From positions 1-42,147 of IMG/VR virus record IMGVR_UViG_3300017605_000345: DNA of 42,147 bases. One strand, written 5' to 3'. Source of the stretch: a virus. Both the position numbers and the translations under genes were made by a program. The notes below the pieces were generated by a model that had not been told where the DNA came from, searched no databases, and was given only the letters and a program-made list of their open reading frames with translations. Of this stretch, positions 3,154-38,695 are shown in pieces; the first letter of the stretch is position 1, and the number at the start of each line of letters is the position of its first letter.

Positions 3154-3207
3154 GGTGTGGTGCTCCGGTTGGTTGGGGTGGATAGCTTAGGTGGGGAGGG
3201 AGGGACG

Positions 3208-3314
3208 GCGCAAGGTGTTTGGTTCGTCCTTTTTTCGTTTTTTCGATAGTTATGTTTGTTAACTTTTTTTTTTCTGAAACAGACTAGGGAAAAGAAGAAC
3301 GACAAACCTTGCGC
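3208..3314. repeat. imperfect inverted repeat around an AT-rich core
   Basis: The left arm GCGCAAGGTGTTTG (from 3208) pairs with CAAACCTTGCGC (3303-3314) with one 2-nt bulge. Weaker G-rich/C-rich pairing continues outward to about 3186 and 3335, and T-rich/A-rich pairing continues inward. The core carries runs of 6, 6 and 10 T. It could be an easily melted origin segment, a bidirectional terminator, or a curved promoter element. Unlike the four GCGAAGC elements, it lacks their apex motif. Confidence 0.5.
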
Positions 3315-3362
3315 AGTCTCCCCCTCTCCTAGTGGCACTTCGCTTATGGCATACGCTCGCAA

Positions 3363-3378
3363 CGTTCCACGTGAAACA
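3363..3378. promoter_or_regulatory. second parS-like site (15 of 16 match)
   Basis: CGTTCCACGTGAAACA matches TGTTNCACGTGAAACA at all positions except the first. It lies 1.33 kb from the perfect site at 2014-2029, so the first early gene is bracketed by two sites. Two near-consensus copies in 42 kb argue against coincidence. Confidence 0.65.
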
Positions 3379-3480
3379 CTGACGCGGTTGGAGGATTGTT
3401 GCGGCAGGCGTAATCGATAGTTTACGAAGTATCGGGATGAGGCGATGCGAGGATGGGCAAGGACCATGCCAAGTAGTGGT

Positions 3481-3536
3481 TGGCACGCTTCTTGATGCGA
3501 GCTGTTCGCATTGAGCGGCATGCATGGAGCGTGCCA
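3481..3536. repeat. nested inverted repeat
   Basis: TGGCACGCT (3481-3489) pairs with AGCGTGCCA (3528-3536), a perfect 9-bp stem. Inside it ATGCGA (3495-3500) pairs with TCGCAT (3506-3511). It lies in the divergent control region, so it may be an operator or origin structure. No T tract follows, so it is not an intrinsic terminator. Confidence 0.45.
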
Positions 3537-3578
3537 TGTCAAGGATCGTGCCAGGCCAGCCCATGCAAACGGCGTACC

Positions 3579-3750: not shown

Positions 3751-4539
3751 ATGCGAAGCATCGATTTGACGGACCCTTGGGGCCTCGCGCCGCCGGTCGA
3801 AGTGGCAGCCTGCCCCAGCGTGCGGCCACGGGAGCCTGAGTCCGACCCTCAAACGACTGATTACACTCCCCTTGCCCCCCTGATTGGTGCGTATGAAGGG
3901 GAGGGGGGTTCGTATGGGGGCCTTTTCGAGGAGGAAGGGACTCCCGGATGCGGACCCGAAAAGACCTCGCGCCGAGCGGGAGGCAGGGCGACCAATCCGG
4001 GCGGTCCAGGCAGGCCCAAAGGCTCTGTCACCGTGCCGCACTTCGGCTCGGACGAGGCCCTCGCAGGGACGGAGGCCAATAAGCAGTGCCTCCAGCGCCT
4101 CACCTACACCCATGACGCCATGATTGACCATATCCTGGCTACACCCTGGATCGAAAAGAAGGAACTGGCCAAAATCTTCGGCTACTCGGTCGAGTGGGTT
4201 CGGCGCGTCATCTGCTCGGACGCCTTCCAGAGCCGCCTAGCGGAGCGCCGCAAGGAGTTCTCGGACCCTGGCATCGCGGCCTCCGTTGAGGAGCGCATGC
4301 GAGTCGTCACAAGTCTGTCCCTCGAAGTCATCGAAGAAAAGCTAGACATGACTCGGGACGTTAAAGTGGCCCTCAAGACGCTCGACGTGCTCCAGAGGGC
4401 GGCCGCGATGGGCAGCCGGACGGCCCAAGTCCAGATCAACAACAACCAGTACGTTGTGGCCATGCCTGAGAAGGCATCCTCGCAAGAGGCTTGGGCAGAC
4501 AAGTACAAGGACGGTCCGGTTGTAGGGGACGGAAAGTAG
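3751..4539 (+). CDS. terS: putative terminase small subunit
   Basis: This is the first plus-strand gene, directly preceding the large terminase. Residues 1-90 are Pro/Gly-rich and probably disordered, with a GRPKGS AT-hook-like patch (87-92). Residues 137-154 (KELAKIFGYSVEWVRRVI) read as a helix-turn-helix, followed by charged helices and a C-terminal segment suitable for oligomerisation. Small terminases bind the packaging site through HTH motifs and feed DNA to the large subunit; position and HTH both fit. At 262 aa it is longer than many. The first 80 residues might start later, but no better Shine-Dalgarno was seen. The identification rests on context more than on sequence recognition. 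Confidence 0.7.
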   Translation: MRSIDLTDPWGLAPPVEVAACPSVRPREPESDPQTTDYTPLAPLIGAYEGEGGSYGGLFEEEGTPGCGPEKTSRRAGGRATNPGGPGRPKGSVTVPHFGSDEALAGTEANKQCLQRLTYTHDAMIDHILATPWIEKKELAKIFGYSVEWVRRVICSDAFQSRLAERRKEFSDPGIAASVEERMRVVTSLSLEVIEEKLDMTRDVKVALKTLDVLQRAAAMGSRTAQVQINNNQYVVAMPEKASSQEAWADKYKDGPVVGDGK

Positions 4540-4555
4540 GCCGCTGATCATCTTA

Positions 4556-4742
4556 GCGCCCTAGGGCGTCAGGGCGTGCCGGCATGGCGAAGCTGCGAGG
4601 TGGCAGAGGCTCCAAGTCAAGGGGCCTAGCGAGGGAGGGAGGGGGCGCGAAGCGCCCCCGACTGACCGAAGTGGCCCCTTGATCTTGGAGAGGCCACCGA
4701 AGCAAGCTAGCCAGGGCGGCATCGCCCCTAGCCCTAGGGCGC
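4556..4742 (+). repeat. structured palindromic element A (TerS-TerL gap)
   Basis: A 187-nt imperfect palindrome centred at 4650 that fills the gap between the two terminase genes. Outermost arms are GCGCCCTAGGGC (4556-4567) and GCCCTAGGGCGC (4731-4742). Further in, CTCCAAG-TCAAGGGGCC pairs with GGCCCCTTGA-T-CTTGGAG with one bulge. The apex is GGGGGCGCGAAGCGCCCCC (4641-4659). Between them are GA steps that can form tandem G-A pairs, including a GG/CT step that pairs only with a G-U wobble, favouring RNA. It ends 19 nt before the TerL start. It is homologous to element C (29105-29272), with compensatory changes. Function unknown: an mRNA processing site, leader regulator, ncRNA or DNA hairpin are all open. 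Confidence 0.8.
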
Positions 4743-4761: not shown

Positions 4762-6243
4762 ATGTCCATCTTCACCTCCCCTACGCCCGGCCAGATCATG
4801 CAAACCATCGTCTGGCAGCCGCAGCCAGGCCCACAGATGGCCTTCATTGAATGCCCTGTCTTCGAAGTCTTCTTTGGCGGGGCGCGCGGCGGTGGTAAGA
4901 CTCAATCCTCTATCGGAGACTGGCTCCAGCACTCCGCCATCTACGGTGTTCACGCTGTCGGTATCTTCGTCCGCCGTCACTTCAAAGACCTCGCCGAAGT
5001 CATCGCGACTACAAAGCGTCTCTTTAAGCCTCTCGGCGCTATCTATAATGAACAGCGTGCCGAATGGTCCATGCCTGGAGGCGCCCGCCTTCGCTTCGTC
5101 CACCTCGACCGCGACCAAGACGCCGAATCTCTCCAAGGTCAAGAATTCACCCGTATCTACGTCGAAGAAATCGGCAACTTTCCCAACTACAGCCCTATCG
5201 GCAAGATCAAAGCCTGCCTTCGTAGCGGTGCCGGAGTCCCTTGCGGCTTTCGCGCCACCGGCAACCCTGGCGGCCCTGGTCATCAGTGGGTCAAAGCCCG
5301 CTACATCGACCCCGCCCCCCAAGGCTACAAGCTCATCACTGAATCCGAAGAACTCGAAATCAACGGCGTCTTAACGACCGTCTCCATTTCCCGTGTCTTC
5401 ATCCCCTCCAAGCTTACTGACAATCGTCTCCTCCTCGAAAGCGATCCGACCTACATCCTGCGCCTCAAACAGTCCGGCTCCGAGGCCCTCGTCCGCGCCT
5501 GGCTTAACGGCGATTGGGACGCCATTGAAGGAGCCTTCTTTGAGGAGTGGGATGCCGCCAAGCATGTCCTGGAACGCAGCTGGGAAGACAAGATTCCGAA
5601 GAGCGCCTTGCGCTTCCGCTCCCACGACTGGGGCTCAGCTCGCCCCTTTGCTACCCACTGGTTTGCCCTTAGCGATGGCACATGGGGTCTCCCCAAAGAT
5701 GCCCTTTTCTGCTACCGCGAATGGTACGGGTCGAGCGGACCTAACAAGGGCCTCAAGATGGACGCTATTGAGGTCGGACGGGGCATTAAAGAGCAGGAAG
5801 GCAAGGAGCCCATCCGTTATGGTCGGGCCGACCCGGCCATCTTCATCCGCAACGGCGGCCCCAGCATCGCCGAACACATGGCCAAGGCCGGCTGTATGTG
5901 GCAGCGGGGCGACAACAAACGTATCCCTGGAGCGGAGGCTATGCACTGCCGCCTCAAGGGCGAAGGGGGAGTCCCCATGCTCTACTTTTCCGAGCAGTGC
6001 CAAGACCTTATCCGTACCTTGCCTATGCTCCAGCACGACGACCACAACGCCGAGGATGTCGACTCAGACCTCGAAGACCATGCCTACGATTCCGTCCGCT
6101 ATGGTATCATGAGCCGGCCATGGCACCCTCGGACGGGGGCTGGTCCTGCCCCAACGGGCACCAAACTGCCAGGCGAAATGACAATGCAAGAACTGTTAAA
6201 GTTCAAATCCCAAAAAGCCGCCTCCGCTTCTCACAATGTCTGA
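4762..6243 (+). CDS. terL: terminase large subunit
   Basis: This is the packaging motor ATPase and nuclease that pumps DNA into the prohead through the portal. Walker A is GGARGGGKT (residues 39-47) and Walker B with catalytic Glu is IYVEEI (132-137). The C-terminal RNase H-like nuclease shows SHDWG (Asp289), GRADPA (Asp357) and HAYDSVRYG (Asp443), the expected acidic triad. At 493 aa the protein is full-length for the family. The start at 4762 has AGGA upstream, just after element A. The C-terminal 40 residues are probably the portal-docking tail. The coding strand is markedly pyrimidine-rich (many CTC and TTC codons). Confidence 0.95.
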   Translation: MSIFTSPTPGQIMQTIVWQPQPGPQMAFIECPVFEVFFGGARGGGKTQSSIGDWLQHSAIYGVHAVGIFVRRHFKDLAEVIATTKRLFKPLGAIYNEQRAEWSMPGGARLRFVHLDRDQDAESLQGQEFTRIYVEEIGNFPNYSPIGKIKACLRSGAGVPCGFRATGNPGGPGHQWVKARYIDPAPQGYKLITESEELEINGVLTTVSISRVFIPSKLTDNRLLLESDPTYILRLKQSGSEALVRAWLNGDWDAIEGAFFEEWDAAKHVLERSWEDKIPKSALRFRSHDWGSARPFATHWFALSDGTWGLPKDALFCYREWYGSSGPNKGLKMDAIEVGRGIKEQEGKEPIRYGRADPAIFIRNGGPSIAEHMAKAGCMWQRGDNKRIPGAEAMHCRLKGEGGVPMLYFSEQCQDLIRTLPMLQHDDHNAEDVDSDLEDHAYDSVRYGIMSRPWHPRTGAGPAPTGTKLPGEMTMQELLKFKSQKAASASHNV

Positions 6244-12154: not shown

Positions 12155-14482
12155 ATGGCCAAGTCCGAACCAGTAGGGCAACAAAAGGGAGAATCCAAAG
12201 TTGAGCACTGGCTCAAGGAGGTAGATGCGGCCGTCAAGCGGGAAGAGCCCTATCGTAAGAACGCATGGGAGGGCATCAAGCTCTATGAAGCCGAAAACTG
12301 CAACCAGACGCATTTTAATATTCTCTACTCCAACACTGAGGTTCTTCTTCCGGCACTCTACTCGGCGACTCCAAGACCAGTTGTACAACGCCGGTATAAG
12401 GACGAAGACCCGGCCGGAGCGGCTGTCGCTAAGCTGGGCGTTAGGACTCTGGAATTCCTGGTCGACGAGGGCGCGCAACCTTACACGTCATTTGACAACC
12501 TTATGCAAAAGGCTACTCTCAGTGGCCTTGTGGCTGGGCGTGGGATCACCCGCTTCAAATACGACGCATACATTGTCGGGGCTGAGGAAGATGGCGATGA
12601 TGAGACCGAAACGACCGACCACGAAGCCGAAGAGGGGAAGGTTCTTCCAGGAACTACCGAGGAAGAGCTGACCAAGGGTGGTCGAGTCGCCTGGGAGACC
12701 GTGTGCGGCGAAATCATCCCCTGGAATCGCATCGTCTATCCCTATGCTACTTCCTGGTGCGAGCTTCCCTGGTTATGTTTCAAACATCCTATGACGGCCA
12801 AGGAATTGGTCGATAACTTCGGTGCGTTGGGCGGCAAGATCAAAGTCTCGGCGCTCGGTATGCGCGATAAAGAGGAGGAAATGAGCGAGGACTCAGCAGG
12901 CCCCAGCATGACGGCCTCCGAAGCTATGCGCAACGGCTGGCAAGGCGAGGGTCCGGTCGGAGCTTGGGTCTACGAGATTTGGGACAAGGTAGCGAAGAGG
13001 GTTATCTTTATCAGCCCTGGACTGCCGGATGAGACCCTGAGGGATATCCCGGACCCGTTGGGCCTGGAGGCTTTCTTTCCGTGCGAGCAGCCCCTTACCT
13101 TCTTCGACCGGATCGACGACCTTACGCCGCAGACCCTCTACACCTTCTACCGTCAACAGGCCGAAGAGCTGGACCGTATCTCTTTCCGCATCAATCGCCT
13201 TCTGAGCGCCCTCAAGGCTCGCGGCATGTATGACTCGACCGTCGAAGGCTTCGACCAACTCATGGCGGCCGACGATAACGAACTCATCCCAGCCCAAAAC
13301 GTAGCCGCGCTTATAGAAGGAAAGACACTCGAAAATAGCGTCTGGTTCATGCCCATCGACCGCATCATGCAAGTGCTCCAGGGCCTCTACATTCAGCGGG
13401 ACCAGTGCAAGCAAGTCATCTACGAAATCACGGGCATATCGGACATCGTTCGGGGCGCTTCGGTGCCCTCCGAGACTCTCGGTGCGCAGCAGATTAAGGA
13501 GCAGTGGGGCAACATGCGGTTGCGCCGCTACCAGAAGAGGGTTCAACAATACTGCGCCGGCTGCATGCGCATCATGTTTGAGATTGCGGCTGCCAAGTTC
13601 TCCATCGACACCTTCAAGAGCATGACGGGACTCAACTTCCCGACAGCTCAAGAAAAGGCGGCTTTGGAGCAGCAGCAAGCTATGCAGCAGCAGCAAGCTT
13701 TGGCAATGGCAGCCCAAGCTCAGCAGCAGGGCCAGGAGGCTCCGGAAATGCCGGAGCCGGAGCCCATCCCGCCCTCCTGGGAAGAGATTGCGGACATAGC
13801 CAAGTCGGACCTGCGCCGCTCCTATCGTGTCTCTATCGAGACAAACTCGACAGTGGACCCGGAAGCTGTCGAAGACCAGAAGCACATTTCCGAGGTCATG
13901 AATGCCCTGAGCCAACTCATCATCGGCTCCCAGCCCTTGCTGGAGAACGGCAGCCTGCCTTTCGAGGCCTTCAAGGCCCTTCTGCTCACTGTCGTGCGGC
14001 GCTTCCGCTTCGGCACGGAACTAGAAGAGACAATCCGCTCGATGCAGGCGCCGCCCCAGAAGACAGGGGAAGCCGAACAAAAGGCGCAAGAGGAACTCGA
14101 CAAGCAGAAAAAGGACATGGAGTCGAAGGCGGCTCAGCAAGAGATCGCAGCCTACAAGCAACAACTCAAGATGGAAGCCGAGCAGGCTCAAATGAAGATG
14201 GAAATGGACTTCCAGAAAAAGGTCTTCGAGCTAGAGCAAAAGATGGCTCGCGAGGTCATGCGCCTAGAGCAGCAGGCACAGGCCCAAAAGCTCTCCGTCA
14301 TGGAGGCGGAGGCTAACCGCAACATGCAGGCTAAGGAAGCTATGCACGCAAACCAGATGGCCGAGACCATGCGCCAAAGGGAGTCTGAACAACAAGGGGA
14401 AGACATGGGAAGGGAAGTCAACCATCGTATGGAAGACATGGAGCGGGAGTCGGCTGCCGAAGCCGAGAAAGAGAAAGAATGA
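12155..14482 (+). CDS. portal protein (P22-like)
   Basis: The dodecameric channel at the unique capsid vertex through which DNA enters and leaves. At 775 aa it matches the size of P22-type portals. The N-terminal half contains typical portal segments (EPYRKNAWEGIKLYEAENCN, then NTEVLLPALYSATPRPVVQ). A conserved clip/stem region follows, and from about residue 495 a Gln/Glu-rich segment continues as a long coiled coil (555-775) that would form a barrel inside the head, as in P22. It lies upstream of scaffold and capsid genes. Confidence 0.88.
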   Translation: MAKSEPVGQQKGESKVEHWLKEVDAAVKREEPYRKNAWEGIKLYEAENCNQTHFNILYSNTEVLLPALYSATPRPVVQRRYKDEDPAGAAVAKLGVRTLEFLVDEGAQPYTSFDNLMQKATLSGLVAGRGITRFKYDAYIVGAEEDGDDETETTDHEAEEGKVLPGTTEEELTKGGRVAWETVCGEIIPWNRIVYPYATSWCELPWLCFKHPMTAKELVDNFGALGGKIKVSALGMRDKEEEMSEDSAGPSMTASEAMRNGWQGEGPVGAWVYEIWDKVAKRVIFISPGLPDETLRDIPDPLGLEAFFPCEQPLTFFDRIDDLTPQTLYTFYRQQAEELDRISFRINRLLSALKARGMYDSTVEGFDQLMAADDNELIPAQNVAALIEGKTLENSVWFMPIDRIMQVLQGLYIQRDQCKQVIYEITGISDIVRGASVPSETLGAQQIKEQWGNMRLRRYQKRVQQYCAGCMRIMFEIAAAKFSIDTFKSMTGLNFPTAQEKAALEQQQAMQQQQALAMAAQAQQQGQEAPEMPEPEPIPPSWEEIADIAKSDLRRSYRVSIETNSTVDPEAVEDQKHISEVMNALSQLIIGSQPLLENGSLPFEAFKALLLTVVRRFRFGTELEETIRSMQAPPQKTGEAEQKAQEELDKQKKDMESKAAQQEIAAYKQQLKMEAEQAQMKMEMDFQKKVFELEQKMAREVMRLEQQAQAQKLSVMEAEANRNMQAKEAMHANQMAETMRQRESEQQGEDMGREVNHRMEDMERESAAEAEKEKE

Positions 14483-14492
14483 ATCCCCATCT

Positions 14493-14644
14493 GCCCACTA
14501 ACGGACCGGCCGACGCTGTAGGAATACCCCTCCGAGGCCGCTTGTCAAGGGAGGAAGCGAGGGAGCGAAGCGACCGAGCGACCCTTGACAAGCAAGGCCG
14601 AGAGAGGGGTACGCCGGGCAGCGCCGGCCGGTCTGTTGGTGGGC
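14493..14644 (+). repeat. structured palindromic element B (after portal gene)
   Basis: A 152-nt palindrome centred on GCGAAGC at 14565-14571. GCCCAC (14493-14498) pairs with GTGGGC (14639-14644). Moving inward, stems of ACCGGCC/GGCCGGT and GCTTGTCAAGGG/CCCTTGACAAGC lead to the apex, where short GC or GG/CC steps alternate with opposed GA dinucleotides (GC-GA-GG-GA-GC-GAA-GC-GA-CC-GA-GC). It starts 10 nt after the portal stop and ends 22 nt before the next start, so it is the whole gap. Element D (38151-38319, minus strand) is a close relative with compensatory pair changes. Confidence 0.8.
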
Positions 14645-14666: not shown

Positions 14667-15047
14667 ATGGCCGAGAGATTACCCTGCGATTGTCACCCCC
14701 GTTACATCACTCGTATCAATGGCCCGGCTCGCTGCTCCGTCTGCGGTTGCGCCCCTGTCCAATACACTCCTGCTTCGGCCCGCCACCAAATGGATGTCGA
14801 CTACGCCTGTCCTATCACTGGCAAGCCTATCCGTTCCCGCCGTGCCCACGAAGAAAACCTTCGCCTTCACGGCTGCCATGTCCTCGAAGCCGGCGAAAAG
14901 GAAGATGCAGCCCGCCGTGGCCGTGAAGCCGATGCTGAGTGCGATGCCCACCTCGATGCCACTATTGATTCCGTGATAGACTCCATGTCTGAGGACAAGA
15001 AGAACCAACTCATCCAAGAACTTTCCACTACTCTGCCCGAGGCCTAA
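14667..15047 (+). CDS. putative zinc-binding protein upstream of scaffold, 126 aa
   Basis: The N-terminal part has two Cys clusters (CDCHPRYI and CSVCGCAP, residues 7-28) followed by YACPITGKPIRSRRAHEENLR and a further HGC. This suggests one or two zinc sites. The C-terminal third is an acidic helix (SMSEDKKNQLIQELSTTLPEA). Similar small proteins lie before scaffold genes in other podovirus-like phages. A role in assembly or regulation is possible but unproven. AGAGAG precedes the ATG, just after element B. Confidence 0.7.
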   Translation: MAERLPCDCHPRYITRINGPARCSVCGCAPVQYTPASARHQMDVDYACPITGKPIRSRRAHEENLRLHGCHVLEAGEKEDAARRGREADAECDAHLDATIDSVIDSMSEDKKNQLIQELSTTLPEA

Positions 15048-28623: not shown

Positions 28624-29097
28624 ATGTCAGATTTTGAAACTTCATTATTGCTTGGGAAGTTGTTCACAACCGCGTACACAACGGCTAATTTGGCGGCGGC
28701 TGGGGTGGAGGCGGTTGGGATGACAATGGGGGCAGACCCCGTAATGTATCTGACACGTAACTATAGTTCCACGACATCCTCCTTTCTTATTGAGTTGTGG
28801 GAGGAGGCTTTCACTGGAGGCGCACTGCGCCCAGCCCCAAATCGAAATTTGATAAACGCCAGCATAGCTCCGGCTTCCCACTACAGCGGCATAACCCCCG
28901 GAGGCGGAGGAATCTTGCGTGCCTCTTTTATTCTACAAGGTAGCTCGTCGACCGGTTTGTCGAGTGTGGCAGTGACAGCTGAGACAGAATTTTACGTCCT
29001 TAAGCCAAACACGCAATACGTCCTGCGGTTCACTAACACATCCTCCCAAGCTGGGACACTATCCTACCGCTTCACCCTCAAGAAGGCCCAAGACTGA
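28624..29097 (+). CDS. hypothetical beta-rich protein, 157 aa, last late gene
   Basis: Preceded by GGGGGC(A)GT, with the start at 28624. The protein is beta-rich with ILRASFILQGSSSTG and FYVLKPNTQYVLRFTNTSSQ, which look like a jelly-roll or Ig-like strand pattern seen in small phage structural proteins. Being after the lysis genes and last in the operon, it could be a minor virion protein. Its stop is 7 nt from element C. Confidence 0.65.
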   Translation: MSDFETSLLLGKLFTTAYTTANLAAAGVEAVGMTMGADPVMYLTRNYSSTTSSFLIELWEEAFTGGALRPAPNRNLINASIAPASHYSGITPGGGGILRASFILQGSSSTGLSSVAVTAETEFYVLKPNTQYVLRFTNTSSQAGTLSYRFTLKKAQD

Positions 29098-29104
29098 GAA
29101 AGGA

Positions 29105-29272
29105 GGCATCTGCCCATGGTGCTTGCCGCCTGGGCGAAGCTAGCGAGGCAGTCAGGGGCCCAAGTCAATCGGCCCAGTGAGGGCGAGCGAAGCGAGCCCG
29201 AATGGCCGATTGATCTTGGGAAGACTGCCGAAGCAAGCTAGCTCAGGCGGCGAAGCGCCTTGGGCTGATGCC
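29105..29272 (+). repeat. structured palindromic element C (convergent junction)
   Basis: A 168-nt palindrome that fills the gap between the ends of the plus and minus arms. Arms: GGCATC(T)GCCCA (29105 on) pairs with TGGGC(T)GATGCC (ending 29272). Then follow GCCGCCTG, AGCTAGC, GGCAGTC, CCCAAG and TCAATCGGCC stems with small bulges. The apex is GGGC-GA-GCGAAGC-GA-GCCC (GCGAAGC at 29187-29193). About 55 of 70 arm positions pair. It may act as a bidirectional terminator or 3'-end protector, but no T tract follows and its homology to elements in the other three gaps argues for something more specific. Confidence 0.8.
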
Positions 29273-38150: not shown

Positions 38151-38319
38151 GCATCTTGCTCCCATCAACAGACCAGCCGGTGCTGTATATCGTATTTCGG
38201 ACCATGGCCACACTGTCAAGCCCCCACTCGGCCGCTTCGCGGCCTCGCTAGGGGGCATTGACAGGTGGCCAGGTCCTCATAGTCCTACAGCATCGGCTGG
38301 TCCGTTAATGGGAGGATGC
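38151..38319 (-). repeat. structured palindromic element D (early arm)
   Basis: On the minus strand GCATC...CTCCCAT arms pair (38319-38308 with 38165-38151, one 3-nt bulge). Stems GGACCAGCCGATGCTGTA, CTGTCAA/TTGACAG and GCCCCC/GGGGGC follow, to the apex GGCC-GCGAAGC-GGCC. It starts 7 nt after the stop of the 38327-38695 gene and ends 12 nt before the start at 38138. Relative to element B on the plus strand it shares about 30 nearly identical bases in the outer arm, with compensatory changes in the other arm. TTGACA in its second arm could also serve as a -35 box (candidate -10 TACGAT at 19-nt spacing), so a promoter role is not excluded. Confidence 0.8.
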
Positions 38320-38326
38320 TCAACGA

Positions 38327-38695
38327 TCAGAGGCAGGAAGACCCGTTAGTGGCCAACGGGTCGACAAACTCCGCCTGACTGGTCTGGCAGGCTACTTCGG
38401 CCGTATTCGCGTCCCAATTGCGGCTTGCCTCCAAAGCCTCCATGCGTCTGGCCTTTAGCTCCGCGACAGGCATCGGGTAGTCGTAGGAAAAGGCGATGGC
38501 GTCCGCGACATCGGACAGGGACATCTGAACCTCGAAGGCATCGCCGTTCTTGAGGCAAAGCTCGCAGACGTTCGGGTCTTTCGGGTCGGCCTGCACCGTC
38601 AAGATGGTGTCAAGGGGGAACAGGAAGGAGGTCAGCTTGCCGCTGATGTCGCCGCGTTGGCCACGGACCGGCACTACGATGAAGGAGTTCGACAT
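38327..38695 (-). CDS. hypothetical protein, 122 aa
   Basis: Leader GAGGAATAACACCATG. The protein has a beta-strand-rich N-terminal half (SFIVVPVRGQRGDISGKLTS, FLFPLDTILTVQADPKD) with NVCELCLKNGDAF; the CxxC alone is not a zinc site. The C-terminus is a charged helix plus Ser/Cys tail. I cannot name a family. Confidence 0.7.
   Translation of the reverse strand: MSNSFIVVPVRGQRGDISGKLTSFLFPLDTILTVQADPKDPNVCELCLKNGDAFEVQMSLSDVADAIAFSYDYPMPVAELKARRMEALEASRNWDANTAEVACQTSQAEFVDPLATNGSSCL

Follow-up and report, generated by a model that had tools for sequence, protein, structure and literature searches.

The stretch of DNA analyzed here (the window, 42,147 nt of a bacterial virus) contains four intergenic gaps that are filled by palindromes of 152–187 nt, denoted E1 to E4 (Table 1). 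E1 occupies the gap between a TerS-like open reading frame (ORF; 3751–4539) and the TerL gene (4762–6243), starting 17 nt past the upstream stop codon and ending 20 nt short of the TerL ATG, and E2 lies between the portal ORF (12155–14482) and the following ORF (14667–15047). E3 is located where the late (plus-strand) and early (minus-strand) gene blocks converge, 8 nt past the last late ORF (28624–29097). Within the early block, E4 begins 8 nt past the stop codon of a minus-strand ORF (38327–38695).

Table 1. Palindromic elements of the window, their conserved cores and apices; the strand is the one that bears GCGAAGC
Feature	Position	Strand	Fold (kcal/mol)	Fold z	Palindrome score	Remarks
E1	4556–4742	+	−141.4	−10.6	25.5	subfamily B hairpin
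E1 conserved core	4599–4698	+				covariance model R1, training set including E1
E1 apex GCGAAGC	4647–4653	+				three tandem G-A mismatches underneath the apex
E2	14493–14644	+	−114.7	−12.7	32.4	subfamily A hairpin
E2 apex GCGAAGC	14565–14571	+				two tandem G-A mismatches on either side
E3	29105–29272	+	−123.3	−11.2		subfamily B hairpin
E3 conserved core	29147–29229	+				covariance model R1, training set including E3
E3 apex GCGAAGC	29187–29193	+				sequence and fold
E4	38151–38319	−	−123.9	−14.2	35.3	subfamily A hairpin; minus-strand fold
E4 apex GCGAAGC	38234–38240	−				GCTTCGC on the plus strand

The four elements are the four lowest-energy 200-nt segments of the 42-kb record in a whole-window fold scan and also the top four palindromes in a palindrome scan, with scores of 25.5–35.3; among 60 dinucleotide-shuffled versions of the window, the maximum palindrome score had a median of 15.5 and a highest value of 18.3. 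Each element is predicted to fold into a single rod, with z from −10.6 to −14.2, and none of the 200 shuffles made for each element folded equally well. A sequence-only reading of the window had already located the palindromes and proposed that they be folded: all four are confirmed at the coordinates in Table 1, each as one rod, and the motifs that it had described as common to the set, namely, TCAA/TTGA, GYGAGG…CCGAR and GCGAAGC, were found in every one of them.

Two subfamilies can be distinguished, A, which consists of E2 and E4, and B, which consists of E1 and E3. When E2 (plus strand) is aligned with E4 (minus strand), the two are homologous across most of their length; they match in the outer arms (CCCAYTAACGGACCRGCCGAYGCTGTAGGA) and at the apex, and their mid-arm sequences have diverged without loss of pairing. 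Homology between E1 and E3 covers the inner part (70% in blastn over about 150 nt), and their outer arms are mutually unrelated, yet self-complementary within each element. The 5′ side of this inner part consists of GCGAGG, stem P2, AGGGG, and CCCAAG followed by TCAA, and the 3′ side consists of TTGA, a T, CTTGGG, AA, stem P2, and CCGAAGCAAGC. In E1, helix P2 pairs 4599–4604 with 4693–4698, followed by the internal loop AGAGG/AG, the helix CTCCAAG/CTTGGAG, the bulged T, and TCAAGG/CCTTGA; in E3, P2 pairs 29147–29153 with 29223–29229, followed by AGGGG/AA, CCCAAG/CTTGGG, the bulged T, and TCAA…/…TTGA. Tandem G-A mismatches flank P2 on both sides and also lie beneath the apex in both elements. 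The link between the two subfamilies consists of short matches and the common core, and the covariance model scores E2 at an E value of only 0.84.

Altogether, nine elements were found in four phages: besides the four of the window, contig G039 has three, and the L418 and L007 phages have one each. A pattern derived from the right arm of subfamily B led to one true further locus, on the 44-kb contig G039, where two elements (G039a and G039b) form a facing pair at the convergent operon end; the third (G039c), detected by palindrome scan, is directly upstream of the G039 TerL. The pattern CAAGTCAA-N-TTGATCTTG retrieved the element of the phage represented by L349, L418 and L454, which has a G+C content of 62% vs 42.7% for the host phage genome. 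Covariance model R1 was built from E1, E3, G039a and the L418 element. In sequence absent from its training set, this model recognized the L007 element (E = 3e-9) as well as G039b and G039c (E of about 0.01). Across this wider family, the apex is GCGNAGC, with GCGCAGC in G039.

The phages that carry these elements differ in their relationship to the window. The TerL of the L007 phage is 60% identical to that of the window; for G039, the corresponding values are 39% for the primase and 30% for the polymerase, and the sole part that L418 shares with the window is a stretch of tail protein. The L007 element lies between the portal and ‘zinc’ genes and is flanked by genes that are absent from the window, and the elements of these two phages occupy non-orthologous places. 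Copies in the viral collection probably outnumber those found, given that the scans demanded exact letters and missed the L007 element.

In relatives of the window phage, the gaps homologous to the sites of E1, E2 and E3 are short or free of unusual hairpins. Of the relatives with complete annotated genomes, the closest is MW202489, in which the elements are absent, TerS and TerL overlap by 4 nt, the portal gap is 18 nt, and the convergent gap is 28 nt. G003 has a hairpin with z of −4.8 within a coding stretch beside the convergent point, with the family motifs absent, and palindrome scans of full-length relatives revealed nothing comparable to the window elements. There are also relatives that have the same replication genes and no elements. 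The spread of the family is sporadic, both between and within phage genomes.

Stem P2 provides a view of how the arms evolve. Its sequences in the four B elements that were aligned first are GGUGGC/GCCACC, GCAGUC/GACUGC, GGAGGC/GCCUCC and GAGACU/AGUCUC, all of them paired. In these four elements, 8 of 19 pairs have changed on both sides, a count reached by 1 of 500 shuffles, and the covariation score of 0.509 was reached by none of the 500; when the partner strand is slid by one column, the score falls to about 0.1 or less. With L007 added, none of 500 shuffles came up to either the both-sides count or the covariation score, and the signal is lost when the partner is slid. Because the alignments are short and few, with four or five sequences and hand-chosen trimming, we consider this covariation good rather than large evidence. 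The AGGGG/AA loops, the bulge and TCAA/TTGA hardly vary, the one difference noted in the bulge being a G instead of T in L007. Fixed loops on stems that have diverged and yet re-paired indicate that the structure is under selection. The proposal of a single family with a shared core, made from the window alone, is thus borne out by homologous elements in G039, L418 and L007 and by arms that vary with their pairing preserved.

The mismatches within the rods show which strand folds. Arm-against-arm duplex alignment of eight elements, read on the strand that is sense to the upstream gene, yields 493 Watson-Crick pairs, 64 A-G, 2 C-T, 20 G-T and 16 A-C mismatches. The excess of A-G over C-T implies that the folding strand is the one that bears GCGNAGC, so that the opposed GA dinucleotides noticed in the sequence-only reading are real and strand-specific. 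In all eight elements compared, folding is better for the sense than for the antisense strand, and folds with DNA parameters likewise favor the sense strand; in part, this energy gap is caused by the same G-A mismatches. Furthermore, the GCGNAGC strand is sense to the gene just upstream in nine of nine elements (two-sided 2^−8 = 0.004 if orientation were random). E4 and G039b are located in minus-strand operons and the L418 element in a minus-strand late block, and the two elements of the convergent G039 pair point in opposite directions, each sense to its own operon. In seven of the nine cases, the element starts 0–17 nt past the upstream stop codon, and the end is often just ahead of the next start codon. 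Along the window, the GC skew switches sign at about 4 kb and again at about 21 kb, the latter switch falling inside the late block and not at the convergent end; relative to the skew halves, the orientation of E3 disagrees with that of E1, E2 and E4. If the skew is a fair guide, orientation is therefore explained better by transcription than by replication.

Dispersed palindromic repeats that act in mRNA are a feature of bacterial chromosomes; to our knowledge, compact phage genomes are generally not thought to carry them. The placement after stop codons, the sense orientation and the fixed loops of the family fit an mRNA element that acts at gene boundaries. We tentatively favor the reading, to which we give slightly less than an even chance, that the elements are RNA hairpins that act in cis on polycistronic mRNA and form a phage-borne family, as yet unnamed and sporadic in its dispersal, with an action similar to that of the bacterial ERIC and NEMIS repeats. 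The element would be transcribed in one mRNA with the gene immediately upstream, and the transcript would fold into one rod-like hairpin broken by fixed features, namely, the GNA apex (GCGNAGC), tandem G-A mismatches, the bulge beside TCAA/TTGA, and the asymmetric loop AGGGG/AA. Such a rod would set neighboring genes apart, by offering a site for processing, by protecting a 3′ end, or by both, so that the expression levels of adjoining genes could differ; recognition by a ribonuclease or an RNA-binding protein would take place at the fixed loops. This reading goes beyond what the analysis shows directly, which is the fold, the homology between copies, the covariation of a single helix, the asymmetry between strands, the sense orientation, and the lack of elements in homologous gaps of relatives; we infer that the elements are transcribed and fold in vivo, as well as what binds them, how they affect mRNA and how they move.

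As a kind, dispersed intergenic hairpins are known from bacteria; as far as we searched, in a limited survey of the literature, the phage family and its design are not described in open papers. The ERIC (IRU) repeats of enterobacteria are 127 bp long, with TA ends and target duplications, and act on mRNA through RNase E in an orientation-dependent manner; the Correia (NEMIS) elements of Neisseria, small dispersed inverted repeats that have target duplications and conserved terminal inverted repeats of 24 bp, form transcript hairpins for which processing by RNase III has been proposed (PMC2229807). The window elements are of the size of ERIC and NEMIS (about 100–200 bp), intergenic, and predicted to form a long stem-loop in the transcript; orientation, which matters for the effect of ERIC, is also strict here, and dispersal as small inverted repeats with transcript hairpins (predicted in this case) is shared with Correia. 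Unlike ERIC, they are phage-borne, have no tested ERIC sequence or ends in common with it, carry tandem G-A mismatches and the GCGNAGC apex, and are represented by a strongly diverged copy in each gap; unlike in Correia/NEMIS, the outer arms of E1 and E3 are wholly different, although E2 and E4 share theirs. Terminal inverted repeats common to all copies were not found, the outer arms of E1 and E3 being unrelated and those of E2 and E4 shared. A search for target-site duplications and TA termini detected no direct repeat longer than 5 nt near the ends and none that was adjacent and consistent. Because conserved ends and target duplications were looked for and not found, we do not file the family under ERIC/NEMIS. 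Among phages, T7 has RNase III processing hairpins between genes, which resemble the elements described here in being phage-encoded, in lying between genes of a polycistronic mRNA, and in having internal loops that are unpaired (predicted here), but are shorter; we know of no report of the T7 sites as a family dispersed across unrelated phages.

The distribution of the family could also be that of a selfish small palindromic mobile element, MITE-like or REP-like, that does nothing for the phage, can be tolerated in gaps between genes only, and has a palindrome that is required for its own movement or regenerates by intrastrand copying. Several diverged copies per genome, sporadic occurrence, non-orthologous placement in two phages with 60% identical TerL, the empty or hairpin-free homologous gaps of other relatives, and the unrelated, each self-complementary, outer arms of E1 and E3 all point in this direction, and in this respect the palindromic mobile element that the sequence-only reading had listed among its options holds up. 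REP and REPIN sequences, which are mobilized by RAYT transposases, consist of 20–40 bp palindromes with a GTAG or CGTC end tag (PMC3733652, PMC3116915). The family described here is similar in consisting of repeated extragenic palindromes between genes that are plausibly transcribed, but its elements are 150–200 nt long, and the palindrome ends of E1–E4 lack a GTAG or CGTC tag. Integron attC sites were considered as well and rejected by eye: the GTTRRRY/RYYYAAC core boxes are missing at the hairpin foot, and the nearest sequences, ACTAAC/GTTGGTG in E2, do not fit. A search for the Y1 (HuH) transposase domain (PF01797) gave no match in the window, with the positive controls matched, nor was there a match to the tyrosine integrase domain (PF00589) in the four phage records, and hence these searches found no mobilizing enzyme for the family, although the host may encode one. 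For a mobile element, then, the searches turned up no transposase in the window, no convincing target-site duplication and no conserved terminal sequence; in addition, fixed loops and diverged, re-paired stems indicate selection on structure, and strict sense orientation would be unexpected from random insertion. We regard a purely selfish element as a less likely reading, though one with appreciable probability.

An alternative to the mRNA hairpin that also involves the sense strand is that this strand is active as DNA, in the form of a cruciform or a single-stranded DNA hairpin that functions in phage DNA metabolism as an initiation site, a recombination or packaging signal, or a site for a single-strand-specific phage protein. 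In a structure selected as RNA, G-U pairs are expected to be tolerated more than A-C. An excess of G-U was examined as proof of RNA and discarded, given that the counts, 20 for G-T and 16 for A-C, are about equal and do not favor RNA over DNA. The GCGNAGC apex is extraordinarily stable as DNA and merely ordinary as RNA; both d(GCGNAGC) mini-hairpins and tandem G-A pairs of the Py-GA-Pu type are established as very stable motifs in DNA. It is due to this near equality and to the known DNA mini-hairpin that the DNA reading is retained; the preference for the sense strand under DNA parameters agrees with it, as does the presence, in the window as well as in G039, of an element immediately upstream of TerL. 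What speaks against it is that orientation tracks transcription in nine of nine elements, with E3 opposed to E1, E2 and E4 when GC-skew halves are used, that relatives sharing the replication genes manage without the elements, and that the convergent G039 elements are opposed, each sense to its own operon. We deem a role at the DNA level rather improbable. The sequence-only reading had offered a list of functions and made no choice; what stands is that the evidence favors a folded sense strand, with RNA and DNA not separated by it.

Still less credible is a multi-copy, trans-acting non-coding phage RNA that would be cut from mRNAs and act elsewhere: loops and apex conserved on diverged stems, the stable rod-like fold and the several copies in the window and G039 would suit such an RNA, but the copies are embedded in operons, and none of the single-stranded parts looks like a conserved antisense region. 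Large phage-associated RNAs such as GOLLD are comparable as structured RNA candidates encoded in phages; they are branched, whereas the window-family elements are single rods, with no match to an Rfam family in the window. Ordinary transcription terminators or chance GC-rich palindromes can be largely dismissed, because, despite the location of E3 and the G039 pair at convergent operon ends, the combination of a stem with an immediate U-tract is absent (for E1, E2 and E4 by reading the sequence alone; for E3 by reading the sequence that follows and by a scan around this element, which revealed no terminator-like site on the sense strand), E1 and E2 are internal to the late block, where they precede TerL and the post-portal gene, and chance is excluded by the shuffle controls.

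Apart from the proposed action in cis on mRNA, the family might represent an undescribed class of small dispersed phage elements, in which long rods whose G-A mismatches and bulge are fixed, present in otherwise unrelated phages, would be recognized by a dedicated protein and retained as a structure of the sense strand in transcripts or DNA; this is a possibility that we hold with less confidence than the mRNA hairpin itself. A family that has several copies in one phage, recurs in phages without detectable similarity in the rest of their DNA, and combines fixed internal loops with free stems presents a testable case of a structured element passing from phage to phage. If the mRNA role is true, expression would be set inside long operons without extra promoters; if the DNA role is true, double-stranded DNA phages would have an unexpected hairpin signal.

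Several other searches produced no further members. E1 and E4 had no blastn matches in phage records, and E3 had none in plasmids. The subfamily B signature matched 18 times in 84,980 bacterial and archaeal genomes, none of these with the fold or the flanking motifs. The covariance model detected no element in 50 arbitrary phage records and none in 399 Pseudomonadota genomes, the latter a weak negative in view of strict filters and a set lacking a positive control. In the viral collection, the core patterns gave, among the matches listed, only chance coding matches as judged by palindrome score; a 23-nt subfamily A arm pattern found nothing, and the two matches to a 19-nt arm pattern are not elements. 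The matches of the L418 and G039 elements to named phages are short. A weak scan match in L288 has a GTCAAGG/CCTTGAC stem without tandem G-A mismatches and was not counted.

A match in Shewanella phage M16-3 (L484) has the apex CCAGTGGAGCGAAGCGGAACGG in common but belongs to a different hairpin of cassette-like appearance and was not accepted as a member. This long hairpin, at about 2390–2600, lies between small reverse-oriented genes, has GTTAG-like feet, is reminiscent of integron cassettes within a Peduoviridae phage, and shares 22 nt of its apex with the L418 element. Other long palindromes were encountered as well: a 187-nt palindrome (score 42) at 1002–1189 of another phage contig, L131, has GCGAAGC near its center, with no TCAA/TTGA core seen; G039 contains a further hairpin type (L460, 3031–3160) with long, nearly perfect outer arms GAAAACAGCAGTAGTGTGGGGGG; and an unrelated phage contig, L228, has a long inverted repeat (score 41) at 3312–3540.

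At the gathering score, Rfam 15 had no matches across the window. With E values up to 0.5, the five element loci gave a single match, to MIR7504, at 29.6 bits vs a gathering score of 83, and this sub-threshold match falls in the repeat at 3193–3329, outside all the elements. That repeat is a fifth long inverted repeat of the window and of another type, with 40-nt arms (78%), T-runs and a purine/pyrimidine-rich arm, and sits at the point where the early and late genes diverge. Similar-looking repeats with homopolymer centers are present in L003 (1026–1243), L014 (121–348) and L336/MW202489 (38405–38613), and repeats of this type may mark an origin or a promoter region in this group of phages.
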